Positions 254 through 11,384 of a stretch of DNA of 11,384 nt are shown in pieces. The stretch lies in NCBI GenBank assembly GCA_014804495.1, contig JAAUZS010000033.1, forward strand, positions 1 through 11,384, given 5' to 3'. The stretch is from Lachnospiraceae bacterium. Its GTDB lineage: Bacteria > Bacillota > Clostridia > Lachnospirales > Lachnospiraceae. The translations under genes were made by a program, and so were the position numbers. The notes under the pieces are model-generated. The model saw nothing but the letters and a program-made list of their open reading frames with translations. It searched no databases and had not been told where the DNA came from. Every line of letters begins with the position of its first letter. Within the stretch, counting starts at the first letter, position 1.

Positions 254-2584
254 CTATTTTTGCTCTTCAATCTTAACTGTAGCTTCTTCTGAAATTACTA
301 TTCCACTAGGGCATTGTCCCTGAAGGTACCTATCTATTTTCTTTTCCAATTCGCAAATCTTCTCATCTTGCTTTCTAAGCAAATTATGCACTAATTTATG
401 GTAACTCATGGGTTGCTTAGGTCTTTCCAGTGCCTGTGCAAGCCAGTTCAAACTTTTCTGCCTCTCTTCTTTAAGCACCTTCATACAATATTCATACGAA
501 ACAACGCTACCACATAAATCTTTAATTTGATCTTCTTCAAAATTCTCATCAATAAGGCGATCTTGTAACTCCAACATCTGTATGAGCGATATAAATCTAG
601 AATTTCCTCTCTTTCTATTTTTAATCGAAATAAAATTTCTATTATTAATTATTGAAAAACATGTCCCATGATAAGAGTCAGTAATCACAAAATCCGCATC
701 CATAATAAGCCTAAGCCATGTTTCAATCTCAACCTCTTTCAATACATCCTCTTCTCCCATCACCTTTGCAAGTTCGTCTTTGTTTTCTGCCTGTCCATCA
801 ATCACTATAACCATTCTCTTATTTAACAAACTCTTAACTTGATAAATCGCTTTTTTCTTTTCCTCGGTCGGGTTAAGAATATAAACAAAAATATATGGTT
901 CCTCCACCTTATAGGCAGATTTCTCCGCAACCGCATCATATATTGTCTTTTCACACAAAAAAACAGGATCCAATACCCAACTTGACAAGATGCCAAAATC
1001 GCGATATAAAATGTCAACCGCTTCCTGCTCACGAACCGATACACTGTCAAACTCCTGTAAAAGTTCTGCCACTCTTAATCTTTCATCTTCAGGGAAAAAG
1101 GTTCGCGAGTGTCCGAAAGAAGTTCCATATGCTATTTTTATCTTTTCATTATTTACAAAATCAAGCAGAAAATGATTTCCGACCTCCTTAATTGAATACC
1201 AATTCCATAGTTGATCCGAGCCTAAAACAAACTTTTCACAGAAGTAATTCAGACTGCCATACTCCTCTATACTTCTTTTCATACTTATTTCATAGTGTTT
1301 TTTTGCAAATCGCATGGATTTATCGTCGGTCTTAAAAGAATCAGTTCCCGGCCAGCTTATCATAAGAACTGTTTTGTCAAACACTCTTGTTAATACTTCA
1401 TGCAACGCAAAATTGGTTAACACGCTACCATAATTTGCACCATACCACCAACCTACAAATCCAATATCAAATCTTCTATTGATTCCGTAATCTACAGCCT
1501 TAGCCAAAGGATACTTGTCTAGTATTTTGTAGAATCTTGACCATCGCCCACTCACCCATGGTGACTCTATAATATTTCTATTTTCTCCAACCGCCCACTC
1601 TAATGGTACTTCCTCTAAACACAAGCATTTTATCTTTGTCATTTGAAGATATATATTTCCCTTTTCTGTATTGACCAACACTACACTGGTCCCATAATCA
1701 TCATCCAAGTCAGCTCTGTATTTTGATATCCCCCAAAAATCACCTATTGTGATATCACCTTGCCTAGGTAATTTCGCAAATTTGCACGAACCACATCCTC
1801 CTCTGATAGAAAGTGATTTTAAAAAAGGGGTTAAAAAATCGCATTTACCTCTCTCTTCAACAACTCGCCCTTTTTCTGAATCAAATGCCATTGCATGGCT
1901 TCTGTGCCAACCGCCTTCCTCAAGCTCCTTAGTTCTGAACCTAAGATTACGAATTTTTCCATACTTTTTTTCTTTTTCAGCAATATACTTTTGAAGTACT
2001 CTTGGAGAAGATACTCCATGGCAAATCAAATCAATTGTAATTAGGCGTTCATATTCGCGTCCCAAAAATCGATTTAGTCCTGCAATCTGGCATGGACAGC
2101 CCGAATACAAAACCATTCTGCCAGCCTTTAAGAGTTTTTCTGTCTCTACATAAGTATCCAATGTGTCACTCTGCACATATTTAGAACCTTGCAACAATGA
2201 CAACTCATTTTTATCTTCAATAAATTTATGCATTACAGTTACATTATCTTCTTTTAACGCCGCTCCACACACTATACCACCCTTGTCAAGGATAGCTTCT
2301 GCCAGAACAGTAAAAGCTCCTCCTGATGAGCTTTTCTTTCTCGTTTCGTTGTCTGACCATAGAGCATAGCATTTGGGCTCTTTATTATTTTTGTAAACCG
2401 GATTTGTAATGGGGCAACTCATCAAACACATTTTACAATCAACACATTTTTCATCATCAATCTGCGGATGCAAAAATCCATTTTCATCAGGCCACATATT
2501 TATTGCGTCAAATTTACACTTATTAAAACATGCACCACATCCTGTGCAAATTCCTTTATCAACTTGATTTACGTTGTCTTTCAT
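254..2584 (-). CDS. Ferredoxin / FrhB-like / polysaccharide pyruvyltransferase fusion protein
   Basis: From the chosen ATG the protein is 776 residues. Residues 13-57 hold two four-cysteine clusters (CTGCGACFNKC and CVDCKMCLMSC), a bacterial-type 2[4Fe-4S] ferredoxin. Residues about 70-360 resemble the beta subunit of coenzyme F420 hydrogenase/dehydrogenase (FrhB), with SGCPCQIAGL near 161, CHGVSSP near 188 and a Cys-rich GGCGSCKF followed by GDITIGDFWG near 262-285. Residues about 372-690 are a polysaccharide pyruvyltransferase domain (PF04230-like): GWWYGANYGSVLTN near 378, GSDQLWN near 455 and DSYHGT near 636. A short charged helix closes the chain. Pyruvyltransferases of this family add pyruvate ketals from phosphoenolpyruvate to glycans; the substrate of FrhB-like domains in glycan clusters is not established. 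No signal peptide or membrane segment is seen, so it is cytoplasmic. A start at 2617 would add 11 residues but lacks a ribosome binding site. An ATG at 2602 has a weaker one. The gene ends in TAG and is 66 bases downstream of the DUF6270 gene. Confidence 0.88.
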   Translation of the reverse strand: MKDNVNQVDKGICTGCGACFNKCKFDAINMWPDENGFLHPQIDDEKCVDCKMCLMSCPITNPVYKNNKEPKCYALWSDNETRKKSSSGGAFTVLAEAILDKGGIVCGAALKEDNVTVMHKFIEDKNELSLLQGSKYVQSDTLDTYVETEKLLKAGRMVLYSGCPCQIAGLNRFLGREYERLITIDLICHGVSSPRVLQKYIAEKEKKYGKIRNLRFRTKELEEGGWHRSHAMAFDSEKGRVVEERGKCDFLTPFLKSLSIRGGCGSCKFAKLPRQGDITIGDFWGISKYRADLDDDYGTSVVLVNTEKGNIYLQMTKIKCLCLEEVPLEWAVGENRNIIESPWVSGRWSRFYKILDKYPLAKAVDYGINRRFDIGFVGWWYGANYGSVLTNFALHEVLTRVFDKTVLMISWPGTDSFKTDDKSMRFAKKHYEISMKRSIEEYGSLNYFCEKFVLGSDQLWNWYSIKEVGNHFLLDFVNNEKIKIAYGTSFGHSRTFFPEDERLRVAELLQEFDSVSVREQEAVDILYRDFGILSSWVLDPVFLCEKTIYDAVAEKSAYKVEEPYIFVYILNPTEEKKKAIYQVKSLLNKRMVIVIDGQAENKDELAKVMGEEDVLKEVEIETWLRLIMDADFVITDSYHGTCFSIINNRNFISIKNRKRGNSRFISLIQMLELQDRLIDENFEEDQIKDLCGSVVSYEYCMKVLKEERQKSLNWLAQALERPKQPMSYHKLVHNLLRKQDEKICELEKKIDRYLQGQCPSGIVISEEATVKIEEQK

Positions 2585-2590
2585 ACATTT

Positions 2591-2598
2591 CTTCCTTC
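2591..2598 (-). promoter_or_regulatory. Ribosome binding site GAAGGAAG for the FrhB/pyruvyltransferase gene
   Basis: GAAGGAAG lies 6 bases before the ATG at 2584. It favours that start, which leaves 12 residues before the first cysteine of the ferredoxin motif, over the ATG at 2617, which has no such site. The ATG at 2602 has AGGA 5 bases upstream and remains a possible alternative. Confidence 0.5.
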
Positions 2599-2650
2599 TC
2601 ATAAAATTCCTAAACATCTGAATGTTTATTTTATTGTTTTCAATTATCCT

Positions 2651-3859
2651 CTATTCCAGAAGTTCAGAAATAAGAACAGCACATACTTCTTCCTTTTTTG
2701 GGGGAATAATTCTATGCACATCAGCACAAACAACAACATCTGATTGCCTACACAACTCAAATTCTTCATCCGTCAAATCATCAAAGGTTATCTTAGATGA
2801 AATAAATAAAGTCGGGATTTCAAATTTTTTTAAGGCTACCGTCAAAATCTGTCCCGCAACATTTTGAGAAACTAAAACAGATATCTTTGCATTCTGTTCT
2901 TTTTTTGTTGTCAACCACAATTTAAATTTTTCTCCTCCAAACTGATCAAAAATCATATTCTTACAAAAGTTCAGAGCGTTTTTTGTCCAATACAATTCAT
3001 TTTTCAAGTTCAAGTTTTCATTTAATTGTGAAAATTTATCTGTATAGTTCTTTCTTAATTCTTCAAGAACCACTGCCTCTTCATCGTCAAAAAAATTCTG
3101 ACAAATAATCTTCACCGCCTCAGCTCCGTATTCATAATACGATTTCTCATAGTGAAGCGGGTGCAATCCAAGTGGATTTGCTTTATCAGACATTACGTTT
3201 TCACAGAACTTAATTACATGACAACCTTCCATTTTTTCTTCAAAATAAGTATTTACCTTTTTTGCCAGTTGATTATATTGATTCACTTCCTCAACGCGCT
3301 TTGTACTGAAGGTTTTGTATAATGGCGGTTTATCATCAATATACTTAGCAGTTCCATAGCATTCATGAAAAATAATCTGATTAAGAGAGTAATATTTCAA
3401 AATAAAATTACAAAACTTATCAATATACTCATACCATGTATCAATATTAATATCATAAGGCGTAACCATTTCATAATTATCCAACCTATAGTCCTCGAAT
3501 ACTTTTTCTTTATTTAGTACATAGGGATATCCACAAACTATGTAATGCTTTTGTTTTTTTAACATATTCAACCGAATGGACATCAAATCAATCAACAAAT
3601 AATCTGCTTTTCTTTCTATCAGATAATCTAAAGCTGTTTTATTAATATCCTGACAAAAACATCTCTTTTCAAAATTGCTTCCCCTATAATCTTTCAAATC
3701 ATCAATTTTAACTTCAAATCTTCCCTTATCAGAAAAAGCCGATATGGGGTGTGATGTTCCCACTCCAACATATTGAAGCACCCTTAATTTCCCTTTGCTG
3801 ACAAGGGGATTCAATATATCTCTTGTCATACAATTTCCCCAAACATTTATAGTAATCAT
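2651..3859 (-). CDS. DUF6270-like protein with an unrecognised C-terminal alpha/beta domain
   Basis: A 402-residue protein. Residues 1-255 match the pattern I associate with DUF6270: GNCMTRD at 8-14 (family form G-S-C-x-T-R-D), 'DINKTALDYLIERKADYLLIDL' style segment at 71-92, FHECYG at 164-169, and GLHPLHYEKSYY at 231-242. The family occurs in polysaccharide clusters and has an SGNH-hydrolase feel, so a role in glycan acyl modification is possible but is my inference. Residues about 258-300 are helical. Residues 325-402 alternate hydrophobic strands and helices (KISVLVSQNVAGQILTVAL, then DVVVCADVH) like a small Rossmann-type domain, whose family I cannot name. No signal peptide or membrane helix is visible. 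The start is supported by AAGGAGA just upstream (3864-3870). The gene lies 35 bases after the tandem GT2 gene and ends in TAG. Confidence 0.7.
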   Translation of the reverse strand: MITINVWGNCMTRDILNPLVSKGKLRVLQYVGVGTSHPISAFSDKGRFEVKIDDLKDYRGSNFEKRCFCQDINKTALDYLIERKADYLLIDLMSIRLNMLKKQKHYIVCGYPYVLNKEKVFEDYRLDNYEMVTPYDINIDTWYEYIDKFCNFILKYYSLNQIIFHECYGTAKYIDDKPPLYKTFSTKRVEEVNQYNQLAKKVNTYFEEKMEGCHVIKFCENVMSDKANPLGLHPLHYEKSYYEYGAEAVKIICQNFFDDEEAVVLEELRKNYTDKFSQLNENLNLKNELYWTKNALNFCKNMIFDQFGGEKFKLWLTTKKEQNAKISVLVSQNVAGQILTVALKKFEIPTLFISSKITFDDLTDEEFELCRQSDVVVCADVHRIIPPKKEEVCAVLISELLE

Positions 3860-3894
3860 TTATTCTCCTTTAACATATAATCTTTATAGAAATA

Positions 3895-5853
3895 TTAAGC
3901 CTGTTCATAATATTTTTGAGAAATATCTGCTAAGAAAATATGCCGTTCTTTCATCAACTCACATAAAATAGTTACATATGACTTAGACAAATCATAACCC
4001 GCCTCTTCCAATAATTCTGAATCAATTGCCTGCATAATCTTATACAACGCTTTTACTGATTTAATCTGACTATTCTCCCCATTCGGACATTGCCATTCTT
4101 CCATCGCATAACATCTAGTATTGTTAATTATTATTTTTTTATAGAGATCGTTATTTAGGATTGATAGAACCCTCGCCTGTATATCTGCCGCTTTTTTTTC
4201 ATGCGCCGTCTCCATAATTTCAACAAAAGCTTCCAGAATATTTTCGCATTTCTTTGTAGAAATCCAGTCTGGCCGATGTATTATTCTCTGTATGTACATT
4301 TCTTCGTCTATATAGTATTTACTATGCGCTGCCAAAGTACTCTCCAAAAGAAAAATCATTCCAGTAAAAAACGAACATTCCTTAAAAATTAAATTACTTT
4401 CTCTTAAAAAATCTGTTTTGTATAACACATTATGAAAATCACAATTTATATATTCCAATTCTGCTTTTTCCGAATAATTGCTAGCTTTGTAGTTTTCTTC
4501 TCCAAACGCCTTGCCCCCTGCAACACTAACCACACTTGCACATAAATCTGCCTGCAATACACTAGCCATATCATACCACTTATGTAACGCTTCATTGTTT
4601 TTAAACCATCCGGAATCTTCTACAAACAGAATATACTCTCCTGCTGCTAAATTGATTCCTGTATTTAAAACTTCCGAATAAGCGCTTTTTTTCATATTAC
4701 AAAGGCGGATTCGGCTATCTAGATATAAATTTTTTTGCAATATTGAATAAACTACATCTTGCGTCCCACTGTTTACAATAATAACTTCAATTTCTTTCAA
4801 AGACTGTTGATATATGCTACTTAAAACCTCTGAAACATAGACTCCATTATCATTTATCGGAACTATAACGGAAACTTTTGGCATTGATATTACCTCTGAC
4901 TTCTCTGCCATGGTTTGAAAATAACAATGTTGCTCCACAATCCTAGCTTCTAATTTTCTCCTAAAGCGATAGTATCCGCTTTGAATCCAACAGTTTATCA
5001 ATGCCTTAGCTAATACTACTTTTTCTTGCTCTGCTAAATAAATAAAATCGGTATACAAAAAAGGAACACTCCACTTTATAAACTGCTCTTTTGTCTCTTC
5101 ACTTTCTTCTTTAACCAGATCTGCTATACGAAGAACAAGATTCGTATGATTCTTCCCCTTTTGCCCAAACGATTTATAAACGCCTTGCTGCATCATAGAC
5201 CCTTCTCTATACCAGCAGTAATGGTACAATTTATCTGAAATCACCGTAATTCCATAAGCTTTTGTATAAATCATAGTCTGAAATAACTTATCTTCGCCCA
5301 GCAAAATATTTTCATCTAATCTAATCTGATACCGCTCAATCAAATCCCGTTTCACAAACACCCTCCACAAAAATGGTGTAGTGGCAGAATTGGAAAACAA
5401 CAATTCCGGCTCAAATTTATCATATTTCTTATATTGAGGCGACAGCGCAGCCTCAAGCCAATCGCTCGGACTCGGATCCTCTGGAAAAATCTGCGCTCCA
5501 CAGATTACGACCTCGGTTTGTTCTTTTTCCGCAGTCTTATACAGTTTTTTGAACATATTTTTGTCTACAAAGTCATCAGAGTCTACAAACCCTATATACT
5601 TTCCCCTTGCCACATTTATGGCTGCATTTCTCGCAGACGGTAACCCTCCATTTTTCTTATTCACAATCACAATCCGAGAGTCTTTCTTTTGATACTTTTT
5701 TAATATTTCAAGACTCCTATCCGTAGAACCATCGTTTACACAAATAATTTCAATATTAGTCAAGGTCTGCATAATTAGACTATCAAGACACCTCTCGAGG
5801 TAATCCTCAACATTGTACACTGGAACTGTTATCGATACCAAAGGAGCACGCAT
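3895..5853 (-). CDS. Tandem GT2 glycosyltransferase: intact first domain, degenerate second domain
   Basis: A 652-residue cytoplasmic protein with two GT-A domains. The first (about 5-225) has all the expected marks: VSITVPVYNVEDYLERCLDS at 6-25, VNDGSTD at 39-45, the metal-binding DSDD at 91-94, and GED at 186-188 as the likely catalytic-base region. It should transfer a sugar from a nucleotide donor to a growing glycan. The second (about 324-520) clearly has the same fold, opening with MPKVSVIVPINDN. It reads NSGTQD where NDGSTD is expected, VEDSGWF where the DSDD motif belongs (411-417), and lacks a GED-like acidic pair. It is probably not catalytic and may bind acceptor or serve as a scaffold. 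The remainder to 652 is helical and unassigned. The ATG follows the TAA of the upstream gene with no gap and has a full AGGAGG site. Donor and acceptor cannot be told. Confidence 0.9.
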   Translation of the reverse strand: MRAPLVSITVPVYNVEDYLERCLDSLIMQTLTNIEIICVNDGSTDRSLEILKKYQKKDSRIVIVNKKNGGLPSARNAAINVARGKYIGFVDSDDFVDKNMFKKLYKTAEKEQTEVVICGAQIFPEDPSPSDWLEAALSPQYKKYDKFEPELLFSNSATTPFLWRVFVKRDLIERYQIRLDENILLGEDKLFQTMIYTKAYGITVISDKLYHYCWYREGSMMQQGVYKSFGQKGKNHTNLVLRIADLVKEESEETKEQFIKWSVPFLYTDFIYLAEQEKVVLAKALINCWIQSGYYRFRRKLEARIVEQHCYFQTMAEKSEVISMPKVSVIVPINDNGVYVSEVLSSIYQQSLKEIEVIIVNSGTQDVVYSILQKNLYLDSRIRLCNMKKSAYSEVLNTGINLAAGEYILFVEDSGWFKNNEALHKWYDMASVLQADLCASVVSVAGGKAFGEENYKASNYSEKAELEYINCDFHNVLYKTDFLRESNLIFKECSFFTGMIFLLESTLAAHSKYYIDEEMYIQRIIHRPDWISTKKCENILEAFVEIMETAHEKKAADIQARVLSILNNDLYKKIIINNTRCYAMEEWQCPNGENSQIKSVKALYKIMQAIDSELLEEAGYDLSKSYVTILCELMKERHIFLADISQKYYEQA

Positions 5854-7179
5854 TTACTTCTTTCCTCCTACCAACTTACGAAAACCATATTTTATCGTCT
5901 GTTTTATACCATTATGCTTATAATAAAATTTCAATTTACCCCAAAAAGAATATTTTCGCCAATCCTCTTGCTTAGAATGTGCAAATGCCGCTCGATTTAT
6001 CTCTTTTTGCCCATTTGCAAAATAAATCTCTAATACCGTTAAGCTACAGGGAACAAATTCGAACATCACCGGAACCTTAGTTGCAAAGTCCCACCAAAAA
6101 ATGCTAAAAGTTTCCTGTGGATTTTCCCACGGCAAAAGATTACCATAAAATACAATAGGCTTCCATGCTGCATCTGCCAGTTGACTTGCCCTTGTCTTAT
6201 TCTTGTCAAACATTTCTTTTTTATCCATCTTCTCTGCTAAGGTCATCAAATACCATGGAACATATCCTATCTGTCCCCTTAAAACAGTGTTTATTATAGT
6301 AGCTGATTCTCTTCCCATCTCTATCTCGGGCATTACTTTCTGCATAATCTTATGTCTACGCAGACTGGCACAGTTTATAACCATAAAAGAAGGATCCAAT
6401 TCTTTCTCTGTTTCATAAATATCATAGTTTCTTAAAGGTGCACCAACTACGTAGTAATCATCCACACTGCAAACACGATAAAATTCGCTTAAATCTTTCA
6501 ACGCTAAAGAATTATCTTCCATATAGATACACTTATTAACCATTGGCAGCAAACCAGCCATCACTATAGGATAATATTCTCGCTTTATATTTGTAACGAT
6601 GAATTCTATGTTACAGTTCTCATATATACTACAAAGAGAATGTATTTTCTTTTTTATATTTTCAGTTATGTCAGAATCCGTCACAAGATAAATATCATAC
6701 TTACTTTCTGGCTTTTTATTCGACAATAGAGAAACAAGCGTCGTCGCCAACGCAAACTGATTGTCCTTCTCCCCAGGTAAAACAATAGGTATATTAACTG
6801 CTTCTTCAACAAACGAGATTGGTACTGCTTTATACTTCAATTCCTTATTTTTCATTAACTTTGCAATATATACGCCCGTCAGCCTCTCAGAAATAAAAAA
6901 ACGCTTTTCGGAAATATCCACTCTTTTTTCAAATTCCCCCAAAAGCTCAAACATCCATTCGCAATAGTCAAAAAAAAGCTCTCTACGCATTATAAACATA
7001 TTGCAAAAATTACTATAATTACCTGAAAGATATTCCTTGGCAATTTCCTTATAATCGGGGAATTTCTCATACAAAATTTCAAATGCCAAGTCTATATCTT
7101 CCTTCCTATGATTCTCTATGTAATGATTATACACATGATTCACTTTTCCGATATGAGTTACAAAATCACAATTTTCCAC
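5854..7179 (-). CDS. C-terminal part of a TAG-interrupted DUF4422-GT8 glycosyltransferase
   Basis: This 441-residue frame is the direct in-frame continuation of the preceding one after a single TAG; the GTG taken as its start is just the next codon. Residues 1-125 are the second half of a DUF4422 domain: YNHYIENHRKEDIDLAFEIL, CNMFIMRRELFFDYCEWMFE at 59-78, then RLTGVYIAKLMKN. DUF4422 is found in capsule and exopolysaccharide glycosyltransferases. Residues about 127-372 resemble GT8 (LgtC-like): NIPIVLPGEKDN, YDIYLVTDSDI, and KCIYMEDNSLALKDLSEFY at 216-234. The usual metal-binding DxD is replaced by EDN at 221-223. The C-terminal HxxGxxKPW motif reads FYGNLLPW at 344-351, with the metal-binding His missing. 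The tail (373-441) is basic and unassigned. If the TAG is real, reinitiation at the GTG is possible but poorly supported: the nearest AGGA is about 16 bases upstream. It would also give a truncated DUF4422. Confidence 0.75.
   Translation of the reverse strand: MENCDFVTHIGKVNHVYNHYIENHRKEDIDLAFEILYEKFPDYKEIAKEYLSGNYSNFCNMFIMRRELFFDYCEWMFELLGEFEKRVDISEKRFFISERLTGVYIAKLMKNKELKYKAVPISFVEEAVNIPIVLPGEKDNQFALATTLVSLLSNKKPESKYDIYLVTDSDITENIKKKIHSLCSIYENCNIEFIVTNIKREYYPIVMAGLLPMVNKCIYMEDNSLALKDLSEFYRVCSVDDYYVVGAPLRNYDIYETEKELDPSFMVINCASLRRHKIMQKVMPEIEMGRESATIINTVLRGQIGYVPWYLMTLAEKMDKKEMFDKNKTRASQLADAAWKPIVFYGNLLPWENPQETFSIFWWDFATKVPVMFEFVPCSLTVLEIYFANGQKEINRAAFAHSKQEDWRKYSFWGKLKFYYKHNGIKQTIKYGFRKLVGGKK
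5864..5869 (-). promoter_or_regulatory. Consensus ribosome binding site AGGAGG for the tandem GT2 gene
   Basis: A perfect AGGAGG lies 10 bases before the ATG at 5853. It sits inside the last codons of the upstream gene (Val-Gly-Gly-Lys-Lys-stop). The TAA and ATG are directly adjacent, so termination and initiation occur at the same place. Confidence 0.75.
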
Positions 7180-7182
7180 CTA
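7180..7182 (-). other. In-frame TAG interrupting the DUF4422 domain
   Basis: Codons run CAA AAG TAG GTG GAA AAT TGT GAT in one frame, so the two adjacent open frames would be a single 575-codon gene without this triplet. TAG also ends three full-length genes in this window (254-256, 2651-2653, 7632-7634), which argues that TAG is an ordinary stop in this organism and not a recoded sense codon. It may be a true nonsense mutation, an off-state variant or a base-calling error. Confidence 0.7.
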
Positions 7183-7581
7183 CTTTTGTATATTTTCCTG
7201 AGAATAATTAATTTCCTCAAAATAATGCTCCCCCATATTGTCAAAAGAAAACACATCTATCTCGCCTTCACACAGAATAAAGTGACGCCTATAATGCATC
7301 ATACCTATATAATCAGGTTCTCCCAACTCTTTATAGTTCTTCCATGCCCAGTACAGACTGGTCATTTCATTGTAGGAACTGTTTTTATAAGATATATTAT
7401 CTCCTGTATCATCACCAATCAGGTTTTCCATAAGCCACTGATAATCAGCGCTACTCACATCCATTCTGTTTTTTGCCAGTGCGCGTCCTACATGAATTGG
7501 CACAAAAATTTCATCTTTCAACAATTGCGACGGCTTATGATAACAAACTAACAGTTTTACTTTTGTCTCTCCCACCTTCAT
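7180..7581 (-). CDS. N-terminal part of a TAG-interrupted DUF4422 glycosyltransferase
   Basis: The 133-residue frame holds the first half of DUF4422: KLLVCYHKP at 9-17, IFVPIHVGRALA at 25-36, IGDDTGDNIS at 55-64, YNEMTSLYWAWKN at 70-82 and YIGMMHYRRHF at 91-101. Family members normally continue well past this point (the domain is about 220-250 residues), and the missing half follows in the same frame after the TAG. The start is firm: AGGAAAGG lies 7 bases before the ATG (7589-7596), and the hydrophobic first strand of the domain follows within ten codons. The gene begins 50 bases after the exporter ATPase and is the first of the glycan assembly genes downstream of the exporter. As a stand-alone peptide it is unlikely to be active. 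With readthrough it would form an N-terminal glycosyltransferase domain attached to the GT8-like domain. Confidence 0.8.
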   Translation of the reverse strand: MKVGETKVKLLVCYHKPSQLLKDEIFVPIHVGRALAKNRMDVSSADYQWLMENLIGDDTGDNISYKNSSYNEMTSLYWAWKNYKELGEPDYIGMMHYRRHFILCEGEIDVFSFDNMGEHYFEEINYSQENIQK

Positions 7582-7631: not shown

Positions 7632-9506
7632 CTACCCATTCATCCTCCGATACTCCTCGCAAACCACCTTCGGGTCCCCCGCCATCTGCAGCTCACCTTT
7701 CTCAATCCATACACACCTTGTACAATTCTCCAGAATCGTCCCCATACTATGGCTCACCATCAGTACCGTACTTCCTCCATGTATCATCTCTTTTATCCTC
7801 TTAAGGCTCTTCTGCCTAAAGAACTCATCCCCGACACTTAAGATTTCATCCAATATCAGAATCTCCGCCGCATCCCCCGCTGTTGCAATAGCAAATCCGA
7901 GACGGCTGACCATACCGCTTGAGAAGTTCTTGACCTTCTCATCCATGAAGTCCTGAAGCTCTGCAAACTCCACGATTTCTTCATAATGCTCTTCTAAGAA
8001 TTCCTTCCTGTAGCCGATAATAGAGCCGTTTAAGAATACGTTCTCTCTGGCGGTCAGCTCCATGTCGAATCCTGTACCAATAGTCAAAAGCTGCACTTTC
8101 TTGCGACCTGCGATTTCCACATACCCGCTGGTAGGCTTAAGCGCTCCTGATACAATCTTAAGCAATGTGGATTTACCGGAACCGTTGGTTCCAATCACGC
8201 CTATTACCTCGCCATGATATACATTAAAAGACACATGATAAAGGGCATACAGCCTGCGGTAGGATACTTCTCTTTTTAGCAGTTGTACTATATATTCCTT
8301 CAACCCTGACGGATTCACCGAAGAAAGCCTGAATTCCATAGTCACGTCTTTGACTTTGATAACCGGTCTTCCCTTCTGCCATTCCAGCTCATATTCCTCT
8401 TCATTCATCTGGTTTATAAGCTCTTTTTTCCGTTTCGCACGTTTTGCTTCTGTGCTTGCCTCTGATTCATCAAAGTCGAAATCAATCAGCTCTACTTCAT
8501 CCACTCCATCTGCGGTTTGCCTTACGTTCTCTATGCGACTATGTGAAACTTTACGGTATCTATTCCGTTTTTCTTCTATCTTTTTCTGCTTTTCTTCTTT
8601 CCTCTTACGCTTTGCCCTGGCGCTCTTTATGATTACCCATACGACCATCTCTACAAGTACGATGAGTAAAATTATTGCAAGTACAATTATGAAATAAACA
8701 TTAAAAATGAAAAAATGACGTTTCTCCTGTCTTGTCTGTACTGTTCCACTGTTTCCGCCGCTTTCTTCATCACCGGCATTCTCATCTGATTCAGACATTC
8801 CTTGTTCCAAGTCCCCAACTTCCGCCATATACCCACCGGAAGTTTCCTGTCCTGTATCTGCATTACCCCCGGCTCCATCTATGCCCTGTCCATCTATTCC
8901 GGCACTATCTCCGTTTCCGCTATTTTCCCAATCTTCTCCTGTTCCCTGACCGACCTGTTCTGCCTCTGTCCTTTCCTGTTCCTCTACCGCATGTTCTGCC
9001 TCTGCCCTCTCAGCCTCAGCCGCCATCTGTGCTTCTATCTCTGCTGCCGTATCTTCTCCGCTTAAATGAACCGGCGCACTGTCATATTCGGTGATATTAA
9101 AAACCTCACCATCTGCATTATCCCGCAATGTGGCTTCTGCAGAGGCTATTTCAATGTATGCCTCGCCGCCGCTTATTGCCCTGAACCTGACCCAGAACTT
9201 AATCTCCCTGCTGTTCTGGTTTCCTTCAAGTATAAGCACTCCGTTTTCCTCATCTGCTGTGTCGGCGCCGTCTACGTATTCAAGACGCAGGTTGTCATAT
9301 TCAATTTCTATATGATAATCACCGATTGCTGCGTTTGCTGTCAGGTATACGCCCACTGGGAAAGTATCTCCGCTCTTTTTAGTATACCAATTCGAGCCAA
9401 AGGTTACCGTCGCATCCGCTGCATGTACATATAACGGTCTTACGAAGACCCCTAAGATAACAGCAATTAGCAGCGCTGCCACCCTGAATTTCCGCTTTGC
9501 TTTCAT
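7632..9506 (-). CDS. Polysaccharide ABC exporter ATPase fused to an extracellular cohesin-like domain
   Basis: A 624-residue chain. Residues 1-29 are a signal peptide (KRK, hydrophobic core, likely cleavage after VHA). Residues 31-150 look like a cohesin-type beta-sandwich: SGDTFPVGVYLTANAAIG at 45-62, EIEYDNLRLEYVDGA, then EIKFWVRFRAISGGEAYIEI. Residues 151-184 are an Ala/Glu-rich helix and 185-260 a Gly/Asp/Glu-rich linker. Residues 265-293 form one membrane helix, followed by a strongly basic stretch, so the ATPase faces the cytoplasm. Residues 381-624 are a Wzt/TagH-type ATPase: Walker A GTNGSGKST at 439-447, signature NFSSGM at 527-532, Walker B ILILDE at 549-554, D-loop SVGD, switch His586. 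It should power export of an undecaprenyl-linked glycan with the permease 25 bases upstream. The chain stops shortly after the ATPase core, so the C-terminal glycan-binding domain of classical Wzt is absent. GAAGG lies 7 bases before the ATG. An internal start at Met367 has no strong ribosome binding site. Confidence 0.9.
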   Translation of the reverse strand: MKAKRKFRVAALLIAVILGVFVRPLYVHAADATVTFGSNWYTKKSGDTFPVGVYLTANAAIGDYHIEIEYDNLRLEYVDGADTADEENGVLILEGNQNSREIKFWVRFRAISGGEAYIEIASAEATLRDNADGEVFNITEYDSAPVHLSGEDTAAEIEAQMAAEAERAEAEHAVEEQERTEAEQVGQGTGEDWENSGNGDSAGIDGQGIDGAGGNADTGQETSGGYMAEVGDLEQGMSESDENAGDEESGGNSGTVQTRQEKRHFFIFNVYFIIVLAIILLIVLVEMVVWVIIKSARAKRKRKEEKQKKIEEKRNRYRKVSHSRIENVRQTADGVDEVELIDFDFDESEASTEAKRAKRKKELINQMNEEEYELEWQKGRPVIKVKDVTMEFRLSSVNPSGLKEYIVQLLKREVSYRRLYALYHVSFNVYHGEVIGVIGTNGSGKSTLLKIVSGALKPTSGYVEIAGRKKVQLLTIGTGFDMELTARENVFLNGSIIGYRKEFLEEHYEEIVEFAELQDFMDEKVKNFSSGMVSRLGFAIATAGDAAEILILDEILSVGDEFFRQKSLKRIKEMIHGGSTVLMVSHSMGTILENCTRCVWIEKGELQMAGDPKVVCEEYRRMNG

Positions 9507-9531: not shown

Positions 9532-10320
9532 TTATACTCTCTGCATGACCTGATTTTCTCCGCGTTTGAAAACGGCTAACCCCAGCCACATAATTCCCAG
9601 ACTCCAGCATACCAGTTTAACCCACATCATGACATCAGGCACTTTACCGTACATCACACATTCTCTCGCGAATGCTATAACCAGATATATAGGATTGAAG
9701 CCGATAAATTTCTGCATTGATTCGGGCAGCCCTGAAATCGGGTAAAAAAGCGCCGACATATACATCCATAGCGTCAGAAACACGGAATACAGATATTTTA
9801 CATCTGCAAAAAAAACATATACCACCGACAGGATATAGCTGACTCCGATAGAAATCATTAACATAAAAACAACGGCCAACGGAAACAGCAGCATGGCAAA
9901 TGTCGGTTTAATACGGAATATGACTAGCATCAACACATATGCGATGCAGGTATATCCGAAATTTACAAGCGTAGTATAAATCCTCGATAGGACAAAAGTC
10001 TGCTTTGGCAGTTTAGCCTTAATCAGCAGGTTTCTATTGTCTACAAGCGCTGTCATTGCCGAATTGGTGGCCCCGCTGAAAAGCGTCCAGAAAATCTGTC
10101 CGGTCAGGTAATAAATCGGGAAATTTTCGATGGAACGCCTAAACATTGTGGAGAAAATCAGTGACATGACAACCATATTAAGAAGCGGATTCAGCACACT
10201 CCATATAATCCCCAGAGAGCTTCTGGCGTACTTGCGCTTGATTTCTCTTGCTGTCAATTCACGGATTACGAATATGTATTGTCTGATATCGCTGTTATAA
10301 CCATTGTTATCTGCTTTCAC
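9532..10320 (-). CDS. Polysaccharide ABC exporter permease, Wzm/TagG type
   Basis: A 262-residue ABC-2 type membrane protein. The N-terminal cytoplasmic segment ELTAREIKRKYARSSLGIIW (21-40) is the hallmark interface helix of the Wzm/TagG family, followed by about six hydrophobic segments near 38-58, 69-88, 111-135, 143-170, 176-195 and 232-252. FYPISGLPE at 192-200 and FNPIYLVIAFARE at 208-220 are also characteristic. It forms the membrane channel through which a lipid-linked polysaccharide is passed, paired with the ATPase encoded next. The start is a GTG that overlaps the TGA of the upstream gene as GTGA, with an AAAGG 10 bases before it, so translation is probably coupled. The length is normal for the family. 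Whether the product resembles teichoic acid, capsule or an O-antigen-like polymer cannot be decided from this gene. Confidence 0.92.
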   Translation of the reverse strand: MKADNNGYNSDIRQYIFVIRELTAREIKRKYARSSLGIIWSVLNPLLNMVVMSLIFSTMFRRSIENFPIYYLTGQIFWTLFSGATNSAMTALVDNRNLLIKAKLPKQTFVLSRIYTTLVNFGYTCIAYVLMLVIFRIKPTFAMLLFPLAVVFMLMISIGVSYILSVVYVFFADVKYLYSVFLTLWMYMSALFYPISGLPESMQKFIGFNPIYLVIAFARECVMYGKVPDVMMWVKLVCWSLGIMWLGLAVFKRGENQVMQRV

Positions 10321-11384
10321 TTGCCAACTGCCTTTCTTATATACATAAGGCTCTTATACAGCCGTTCCTGTCTCATATTCATTTCAGTCTTTATCCCAAG
10401 TCTTGCTATACTGCCTTCCGGCCATGCGCTCTCGTACAGTCTGTTGGATTTCAGATTCATCTTGATTAAAAGCTTACTTAAAAACTGATTCTCTCGAAGT
10501 TGCTCTTCATCCCACTCGGCCGCCACAGGCTGCAAGTTAAGCTCCAGCACATCATCACAAAAAAGCAGTTCACCGAATGCCTTTGCTTCCTGCATTGTAG
10601 GATTTCCCATCATGGGTTTTAAAAGTTTTGACACAAAACGGACACTTTTTGCATGACTTCTATGGCTGGCAGATAAATTATAAAATGACGTTTTCAATGC
10701 TATTGATGATTTCGATAACTCTGCTGTTGATGTTACATTTGCCGCCCCAATATAGGCAGATGCATATTCCGATAACAACTCAGAAAAACGTTCCATAACT
10801 TCTGCATTTGGATTTTTTACATCACTTTCTAAAGTTATTGCTTTATCCGATATCATCCCAAACCCACAAGTCATCCCTTCCGGTGCAGACAAAACCGTCT
10901 CAAACAGACAGTTAGAAAATCTTACTTTTCTCCATACCTGTTTTTCACCAAAATAAAACGCCTTATACTGATTCGCATCTGTTCCCTTTGGTCTTTCATA
11001 TATTCCAAAATAATATCCTTGTAGTCTTATATCCCTCGAATCCTCATGCGCAATCACTCTCTGCAAACTAAGCTGTAAGCTTCCAACCCATCCGCTGTCC
11101 ACAATAGCATATGAAACCGGCTCTAATAATCCTTCCTGTCTTAAATACGCTGCCGTATTCTCATAACAGGTTTTGGAGTGTTCTTTTATATAAATAAACA
11201 ACTGCTCGAGCCGTGATAAATCTTCTTTAAGTTTGCGAAGCTGTCTGTAGTTCAATGGTGTTTTATAGGTCTCCGTTCGTCCTGCCAGTCTTGCAATATG
11301 AAGCGCCTCTCCTTCTGTGAGGTTTGCCCTTTTCATAATCTTTTCAAAAGTTATGTCGATTCCGCCCACACACAGGGTATCCAG
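10317..11384 (-). CDS. HAD-superfamily-like protein (COG5610 type), 3' part only
   Basis: The frame is open through the right edge: before the GTG at 11369 it still reads Leu-Asp-Thr-Leu-Cys, so the true start is outside and about 355 codons are visible. The segment VSYAIVDSGWVGSLQLSLQR, then GYYFGIYERPKG and FETVLSAPEG, matches what I recall of the C-terminal half of large HAD-like proteins found in polysaccharide clusters. Their catalytic HAD motifs lie in the N-terminal half, which is not in the window. The function is therefore uncertain; a phosphatase or glycan-modifying role is only a guess. The C-terminal part (about 210-350 from the GTG) is helical, with basic segments and no membrane helix or known motif. 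The gene ends in TGA overlapping the permease start, which ties it to the exporter. Confidence 0.6.
   Translation of the reverse strand: MDTLCVGGIDITFEKIMKRANLTEGEALHIARLAGRTETYKTPLNYRQLRKLKEDLSRLEQLFIYIKEHSKTCYENTAAYLRQEGLLEPVSYAIVDSGWVGSLQLSLQRVIAHEDSRDIRLQGYYFGIYERPKGTDANQYKAFYFGEKQVWRKVRFSNCLFETVLSAPEGMTCGFGMISDKAITLESDVKNPNAEVMERFSELLSEYASAYIGAANVTSTAELSKSSIALKTSFYNLSASHRSHAKSVRFVSKLLKPMMGNPTMQEAKAFGELLFCDDVLELNLQPVAAEWDEEQLRENQFLSKLLIKMNLKSNRLYESAWPEGSIARLGIKTEMNMRQERLYKSLMYIRKAVGK

Follow-up and report, generated by a model that had tools for sequence, protein, structure and literature searches.

An exporter ATPase with a cohesin-fold domain outside the cell: a putative docking arm between polymer export and wall attachment

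Why would the motor subunit of a polysaccharide exporter, whose work is done in the cytoplasm, carry a folded domain on the other side of the membrane? The window, by which we mean the whole 11,384-nucleotide stretch of Lachnospiraceae DNA analyzed here, raises this question with a single minus-strand frame (7632-9506) that runs uninterrupted over 624 amino acids. Its parts and neighbors are as follows.

7632..9506, minus strand: exporter ATPase with extracellular cohesin-fold domain, whole protein, 624 aa (open reading frame; order kept in 120 of 120 listed homologues)
9420..9506, minus strand: signal peptide, residues 1-29 (n/h/c pattern and conserved alanines at the site)
9042..9419, minus strand: cohesin-fold ectodomain, residues 30-155 (AlphaFold model; top Foldseek and VIA-align matches are cohesins)
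8721..9041, minus strand: acidic, Gly-rich stalk, residues 156-262, length varying among relatives (composition; ectodomain-to-TM distance)
8631..8720, minus strand: transmembrane (TM) helix, residues ~263-292 (hydropathy; helix in the model; N269, W290)
8364..8630, minus strand: basic cytoplasmic linker, residues 293-381 (composition)
7635..8363, minus strand: Wzt/TagH-type nucleotide-binding domain (NBD), residues 382-624 (PF00005; NCBIfam TagH; TagH and ABC exporter chains in the PDB)
9532..10320, minus strand: Wzm-type ABC-2 permease, the partner subunit (PF01061, 50.6 bits, cut-off 26.9)
10317..11384, minus strand: cassette gene without a Pfam match, running off the window
254..7581, minus strand: downstream glycan-building genes (DUF4422, GT2 pair, DUF6270, pyruvyl transferase/FrhB), context only (Pfam)

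Architecture of the fused subunit

The open reading frame, Pfam and the structural models confirm the layout given in the original prediction, with its signal peptide, ectodomain, acidic/Gly-rich stalk, TM helix, basic flank and complete ABC ATPase, and this one-chain architecture supports the claim that a module outside is physically tied to the motor inside. Cleavage of the signal peptide was judged by pattern (n/h/c regions and alanines), and A29 and A32 at the predicted site are invariant in 20 aligned sequences, window included, as are N269 and W290 of the TM helix in the same alignment. The stalk holds 29 Asp and Glu, 4 Lys and Arg and 20 Gly residues; the linker holds 25 Lys and Arg and 21 Asp and Glu. 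The ATPase part reaches 75.9 bits with PF00005 (ABC_tran, cut-off 25) and 179.8 bits with the NCBIfam TagH model, under its equivalog cut-off of 320, and a PDB sequence search retrieved TagH and ABC exporter chains, which places it nearest TagH/Wzt-type exporters. Pfam detects no PF14524 (Wzt_C) in the protein, which ends with the NBD.

The upstream neighbor of this gene is the permease, which matches the NCBIfam galactan permease at 73.2 bits, under the cut-off of 380. A Wzt/TagH-related ABC ATPase thus lies beside an ABC-2 permease, the arrangement of a Wzm/Wzt-type exporter, and the exporter role proposed at the outset gains support from this Wzm-like partner. The same pairing holds in all nine ATPase-fused loci of the survey described below, as the original prediction had asked of homologues with the same domain order. 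Elsewhere in the same genome, a second Wzt (L002:934-2226, minus strand) has a conventional C-terminal Wzt_C domain (PF14524, 141.9 bits), and therefore the species uses both designs. Three surveyed loci (L087, L090 and L017) have two Wzm-type permease genes each and possibly encode heterodimeric exporters.

Modeled alone, the ectodomain (AlphaFold, residues 29-160) is predicted to be all-beta with a mean pLDDT of 90.8, and cohesins are its top matches by Foldseek and VIA-align, in agreement with the cohesin-like beta-sandwich that had been predicted. The full-length model is poor (mean pLDDT 51.8 overall, with the ectodomain mostly at 77-89 and never under 70, and the TM helix at about 70) and was too poor for a fold search. 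Sequence similarity to cohesins is faint. Identity to cohesin modules, among them the Clostridium perfringens cohesins 2vo8, 2w1n and 2jh2, is 14-19%, and a profile search of solved structures gave weak matches (best E 0.056), 9 of 11 of them cohesin or cohesin-like chains. Pfam PF00963 (Cohesin) gives 14.5 bits to the ectodomain and 23.6 bits to a stand-alone relative. The cut-off of 24.1 is not reached by the ectodomain, and for this reason we call it cohesin-fold and do not file it as a cohesin. A search of the window genome with Pfam Cohesin at E<=0.001 gave no match, a threshold that the window's own domain also misses.

The domain order is not an accident of assembly. A whole-protein search returned 3849 matches, and all of the best 120 listed have, in this order, a hydrophobic segment at the N terminus, the ectodomain, a TM segment and the ATPase, so that a chimera or chance joining of two genes, an outcome that would have undone the original prediction, is ruled out. 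Among these 120 listed relatives of the 3849, the ectodomain-to-TM distance ranges from 55 to 193 residues, and neither stalk nor linker is conserved. With the ectodomain region as query, 258 proteins matched and 120 were listed; the two listings pooled comprise 162 distinct proteins, 160 with the ectodomain-then-ATPase order by parse, while P0122 (389 aa, on a short contig) has no ATPase match and P0139 parses ambiguously. In the second, ectodomain-search set, an N-terminal hydrophobic stretch exceeds the threshold in only 25 of 40 proteins. A motif, [FY]Nx[YF], lies between ectodomain and ATPase in 119 of the 120 listed close relatives and at the TM start in the window; it is absent from the TM stretches of seven of the nine ATPase-fused survey proteins. 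The source names, few of which are given in either listing, mention only an ABC ATPase. Named relatives from metagenome-assembled genomes (MAGs) are labeled Lachnospiraceae, Lachnobacterium, Blautia, Clostridia, Muribaculaceae (perhaps misbinned) and Candidatus Allocopromorpha (Eubacteriaceae). We did not find the architecture described in the open-licence PMC literature, which does not establish its absence from print.

Recurrence of the module and its gene neighborhoods

An ectodomain profile matches 172 of 397 Lachnospiraceae genomes at E<=0.001. Neighborhoods were drawn for a hand-chosen subset of these matches, mostly better-scoring ones, together with the 30 best ATPase matches; with the window excluded and a duplicate locus removed (L164 = L085), the survey set comprises 80 ectodomain ORFs. 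Thirty-eight lie beside a gene for a secreted SH3/cadherin-like protein (group A, the sister stand-alone proteins) and 21 beside a LytR-CpsA-Psr (LCP) gene, nine are fused to the ATPase and one to the permease, three lie near Wzz, and eight are placed otherwise. New here is that other loci have the domain fused to the permease or encoded by a gene of its own, the latter either close to soluble Wzm/Wzt or within capsule loci of the Wzz type. The permease fusions (L014, L015 and L013, which is one locus with L086) run in the order signal peptide, ectodomain, further extracellular stretch, TM helix and Wzm part, and in ATPase and permease fusions alike the topology is consistent, a single TM helix taking the chain from outside to the subunit's cytoplasmic start. 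In L217 a separate ectodomain gene has LCP genes before it and soluble Wzm and Wzt immediately after it; in L216 a gene for 818 aa comes between the ectodomain gene and Wzm, with soluble Wzm/Wzt and LCP nearby. Wzz-type capsule loci with LCP and sortase (L113, L218 and L220) contain a stand-alone ectodomain gene; L220 also encodes a secreted protein with an SPKTG signal and L113 one that ends in PKTGEF without a tail, neither with an established sequence tie to the window's SPKTG protein. In the isolate Roseburia inulinivorans DSM 16841 the domain is found both on the permease and on a protein whose gene immediately precedes an ATPase ORF of its own. This ecto-TM protein (L014:5992-8081) has Flg_new and FN3 matches below cut-off after its TM helix and ends shortly before the ATPase ORF, which is in another frame; the split of the ATPase gene in this draft assembly is either a frameshift or real.

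Two trees describe how the module has moved. A domain tree of 87 rows, built on 121 columns (flagged as few), has a clade (support 99/97) that holds all 17 exporter-fused domains, three Wzz-linked and two unclassed ones, and four of the 38 group-A domains; the three permease-fused domains form a clade of their own (99/90). On a 40-row ATPase tree, in which L014 was scored as soluble (ectodomain and ATPase being separate ORFs in the draft), the soluble, TM-only and ectodomain states need 10 changes, and the ectodomain alone needs nine, at least six of them forced by supported branches. Read from these sequences, the ectodomain is a module often gained or lost.

Beyond the window's upstream end the contig encodes, in the same direction, a sortase, an LCP protein, a 226-aa secreted protein with a C-terminal SPKTG motif and hydrophobic tail, and two glycosyltransferases (GTs), so that an LCP, a sortase and an SPKTG-type substrate share the locus as a sortase/LCP wall-attachment cassette. 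The LCP protein matches PF03816 at 67.3 bits and the sortase PF04203 at 49.3 bits; we name the latter sortase B-like because the class B model TIGR03064 is its best NCBIfam match, yet at 132 bits falls below the cut-off of 153.75. C. difficile SrtB is reported to cleave SPKTG peptides (PMC4155245). L009-L012, L193-L196 and L200 likewise have the LCP gene, both GTs and the SPKTG-type protein, with the surface protein lacking the motif in L194 and carrying SPRTG in L010 and SPQTG in L193; a sortase gene accompanies them in L193-L196 and L200, and in L009-L012 its place is beyond the stretch examined. The Pfam-less cassette gene (10317-11384; L009:3646-5190) encodes mostly 386-584 aa in relatives and occurs also in L106; none of its copies has a Pfam match, nor has the L009 copy an NCBIfam match.

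The closest relative, L009, separates what is constant from what varies. Its ectodomain is 98% identical to the window's, its permease 99%, its SPKTG protein 94%, both GTs 96-98% and its LCP 93% over the part compared. The ~6 kb downstream holds different genes, the first a CDP-glycerol glycerophosphotransferase, and none of the window's downstream glycan genes was found in the 6 kb 3' of the ATPase. Conservation of the arm therefore follows the attachment cassette and not the downstream glycan genes. In close relatives the ectodomain is part of a constant cassette with the sortase, the LCP ligase and the SPKTG protein, an association that is also new. Among the downstream genes, the DUF4422 glycosyltransferase gene of the window (5854-7581, minus strand) has an in-frame TAG at 7180-7182, and its two halves match successive parts of PF14393; the TAG is either a real nonsense codon or a MAG error.

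Whether ectodomain and LCP genes associate more widely was counted by genome. An LCP gene lies upstream in 6 of 10 genomes with an ecto-ATPase, both of those with a separate ectodomain gene, 2 of 4 with a TM-only ATPase and none of 12 with a soluble ATPase and no ectodomain gene, in upstream stretches of ~3.6-18 kb (less than 10 kb for L091, L098, L193 and L207). Counting either side, with ~8 kb covered downstream (less for L091 and L094), gives 7 of 10 ecto-ATPase genomes against 1 of 12 soluble ones (G232, downstream); at ectodomain loci, downstream LCPs were counted for L016 and L202. Four of the 10 ecto-ATPase genomes have no LCP upstream and three have none on either side. One-sided Fisher tests give p 0.0028 (upstream) and 0.0046 (both sides) on rows that are related to each other. 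A relatedness-aware test by independent pairs (33 rows, 6 pairs) was not significant: LCP went with the ectodomain in 1.4 pairs and against it in 0.5 when counted upstream only (median p 1), and in 3.1 and 0.3 pairs when counted on both sides (median p 0.25). The association, drawn from gene neighborhoods, is suggestive only.

A possible docking arm and its rivals

The explanation that we favor, at a probability of roughly 0.42, is that the ectodomain is an outside docking arm that couples polymer export to wall attachment through a putative ligand. The protein would serve as the ATPase of a Wzm/Wzt-type exporter that delivers a cell-wall glycopolymer, with a cohesin-fold docking domain held outside the membrane on a flexible stalk, presumably in two copies per exporter dimer at the exit site. 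The target of the arm would be some constant member of the attachment machinery, with the LCP ligase and the SPKTG surface protein as the likeliest candidates, and the arm would keep ligase and acceptor beside the emerging lipid-linked chain so that export is coupled to covalent attachment. In this it might resemble the outer SH3b portion of Bacillus TagH, with another fold and in reversed order. The computed support consists of the architecture, the fold, the adjacent permease and the recurrence on or beside polysaccharide export systems and, for the closest relatives only, the shared cassette of LCP, sortase and SPKTG protein. The strongest fact against an essential role is the whole cassette beside an armless ATPase in G370 and G203: the genus-mate G370 has only a TM-ATPase and no ectodomain match anywhere in its genome, and G203 likewise has a TM-ATPase without ectodomain, so the arm is dispensable. 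The downstream LCP control, in which the soluble G232 has an LCP too, lowered our confidence slightly. A fuller version is unlikely as a whole: a hitherto undescribed export-and-attach line in gut Lachnospiraceae in which the arm, swappable among ATPase, permease and separate membrane protein, docks the LCP ligase and/or the SPKTG protein at the exit pore and the polysaccharide is transferred, perhaps onto the SPKTG protein. Glycosylation of that protein is only conjecture.

The original prediction offered sensing or holding of the polymer, binding of a dockerin, and docking to the wall or a partner, and of these putative roles docking fares best. The dockerin claim is not supported for this organism. 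Its genome, 94% complete, has no PF00404 (Dockerin_1) match at E<=0.001 and no match at E<=0.1 with a lineage-specific profile (A5), and canonical cohesin-dockerin pairing in this organism is thereby rejected. The same two profiles found nothing in 11 of the 12 exporter-group genomes (G000, ten others with an exporter fusion, and G370, without ectodomain); only G307 has a match. That the domain is a true cohesin docking a dockerin-bearing wall protein, as its stand-alone sisters probably do, is accordingly the least probable of the explanations weighed here, although the sisters lend it something. Group-A genes adjoin those for secreted SH3/cadherin-like proteins, of which 15 of 39 tails were judged dockerin or degenerate dockerin and 5 of 7 examined have PF00404, and group A likely forms cohesin-dockerin pairs, judging by these sequences; for the exporter group such pairing is not likely. 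Among other genomes with an export-type domain, G156, whose stand-alone ectodomain gene belongs to a capsule locus, has three dockerin matches elsewhere, G087 has one weak match (E 0.036), and G083 and G120 have none; G214, with a separate ectodomain gene, has two and G148 none. EF-hand-like motifs occur in 2 of 23 LCP-cluster proteins, inside low-complexity tails. As an observation apart, L139 (4606-8832), L132 (3820-7310), L143 (5507-9070) and others represent non-cellulosomal cohesin/dockerin pairs in Lachnospiraceae, in which a stand-alone membrane cohesin-fold gene lies directly 3' of a secreted SH3_3/cadherin-like/dockerin gene.

The main rival to the docking arm is that the ectodomain holds glycan outside the cell, binding some invariant portion of the chain, such as the linkage unit or the first sugars, to stop backsliding, as the cytoplasmic Wzt_C does inside. 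The ecto-ATPase has no Wzt_C, whereas the second Wzt of the same genome has one, and the upstream GT4 and GT2, conserved with the cassette, could build a constant linkage unit; PMC11466899 also likens the SH3b-like outer domain of TagH to wall-polymer-binding domains. We nonetheless consider this somewhat unlikely. Downstream glycan genes can differ while the ectodomain is unchanged, and the sensing of a finished polymer is weakened by the same 98% identical ectodomain beside different genes over ~6 kb in L009. Cohesin folds are, moreover, known mainly as protein-binding modules. No Wzt_C structure appears among the 50 fold matches listed (Foldseek, VIA-align), to which we give no weight. It is improbable that only the membrane anchor matters and the ectodomain is a historical passenger. 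TM-ATPases without the ectodomain do make up 5 of the 40 ATPase-tree rows, two of them (L195:817-1842 and L200:769-1830, both with the sortase/LCP/SPKTG cassette kept) inside ectodomain clades and another, L015, with the domain on its permease, and the three ATPase states need 10 changes on that tree. Against this, permeases and genes of its own carry the domain as well, and the ectodomain is 98% identical to that of L009 and 73-79% to those of L010, L012 and L193, while in the latter three the stalk has no detectable similarity to the window's, from which it follows that the ectodomain is under constraint. Equally hard to favor, and slightly more so, is a sensor in which an outside ligand is signaled through the TM helix to the ATPase and gates export. 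One helix does link domain and ATPase, and the near-constant [FY]Nx[YF] motif of the close relatives may mean specific helix contacts, but the stalk, being long, of low complexity and variable in length, would make a poor lever, and the absence of the motif from the TM stretches of most ATPase-fused survey proteins counts against this reading.

Comparison with known systems

How the lipid-linked chain is handed over from Gram-positive polymer exporters to LCP enzymes outside is, to our knowledge, largely unknown. An outward-facing module on the motor, traveling with LCP and sortase genes in the closest relatives, makes this hand-over testable, and a docking arm would extend the cohesin fold from enzyme scaffolding to polymer export in common gut bacteria.

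The Wzm/Wzt exporters of the subgroup with Wzt_C share the NBD and permease families found here. Wzt_C is C-terminal and cytoplasmic; the present protein has none, and its extra domain is N-terminal and outside. Compared with cohesin modules such as those of C. perfringens (2vo8, 2w1n, 2jh2), the fold is here fused to an ABC ATPase, in a genome where no dockerin was found. An ABC transporter protein of Pseudobacteroides cellulosolvens has a C-terminal dockerin and is described by its authors (PMC5590126) as a two-ORF fusion in a cellulosome gene cluster with a suggested role in uptake. Both are ABC proteins with a cellulosome-type module, but that transporter carries the dockerin and the window protein a cohesin fold on a polymer exporter. 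In Actinomyces oris, the LCP enzyme LcpA is reported to glycosylate the cell wall-anchored surface protein GspA (PMC6381275); here an ABC exporter with an ectodomain stands in the same cassette.

A further likeness is to Bacillus subtilis TagGH. According to PMC11466899, a source that labels the subunits inconsistently (TagG is given as the NBD in its text), the ATPase chain of TagH has a single membrane crossing and, at its end, an SH3b-like module outside the cell on a flexible linker; two TarGH structure papers (PMC11971408, PMC7078476) yielded no matching passage on TagH or an extracellular domain. Both systems are thus of the type V polymer exporter kind with a single-crossing ATPase chain and a module outside, and that type V description supports the reversed order that had been claimed: NBD, TM and SH3b in TagH, and here the ectodomain first, behind a signal peptide. 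The present ATPase stays below the TagH equivalog cut-off (179.8 vs 320 bits), and where TagH has SH3b it has a cohesin fold, a module that its relatives also carry on the permease or alone.
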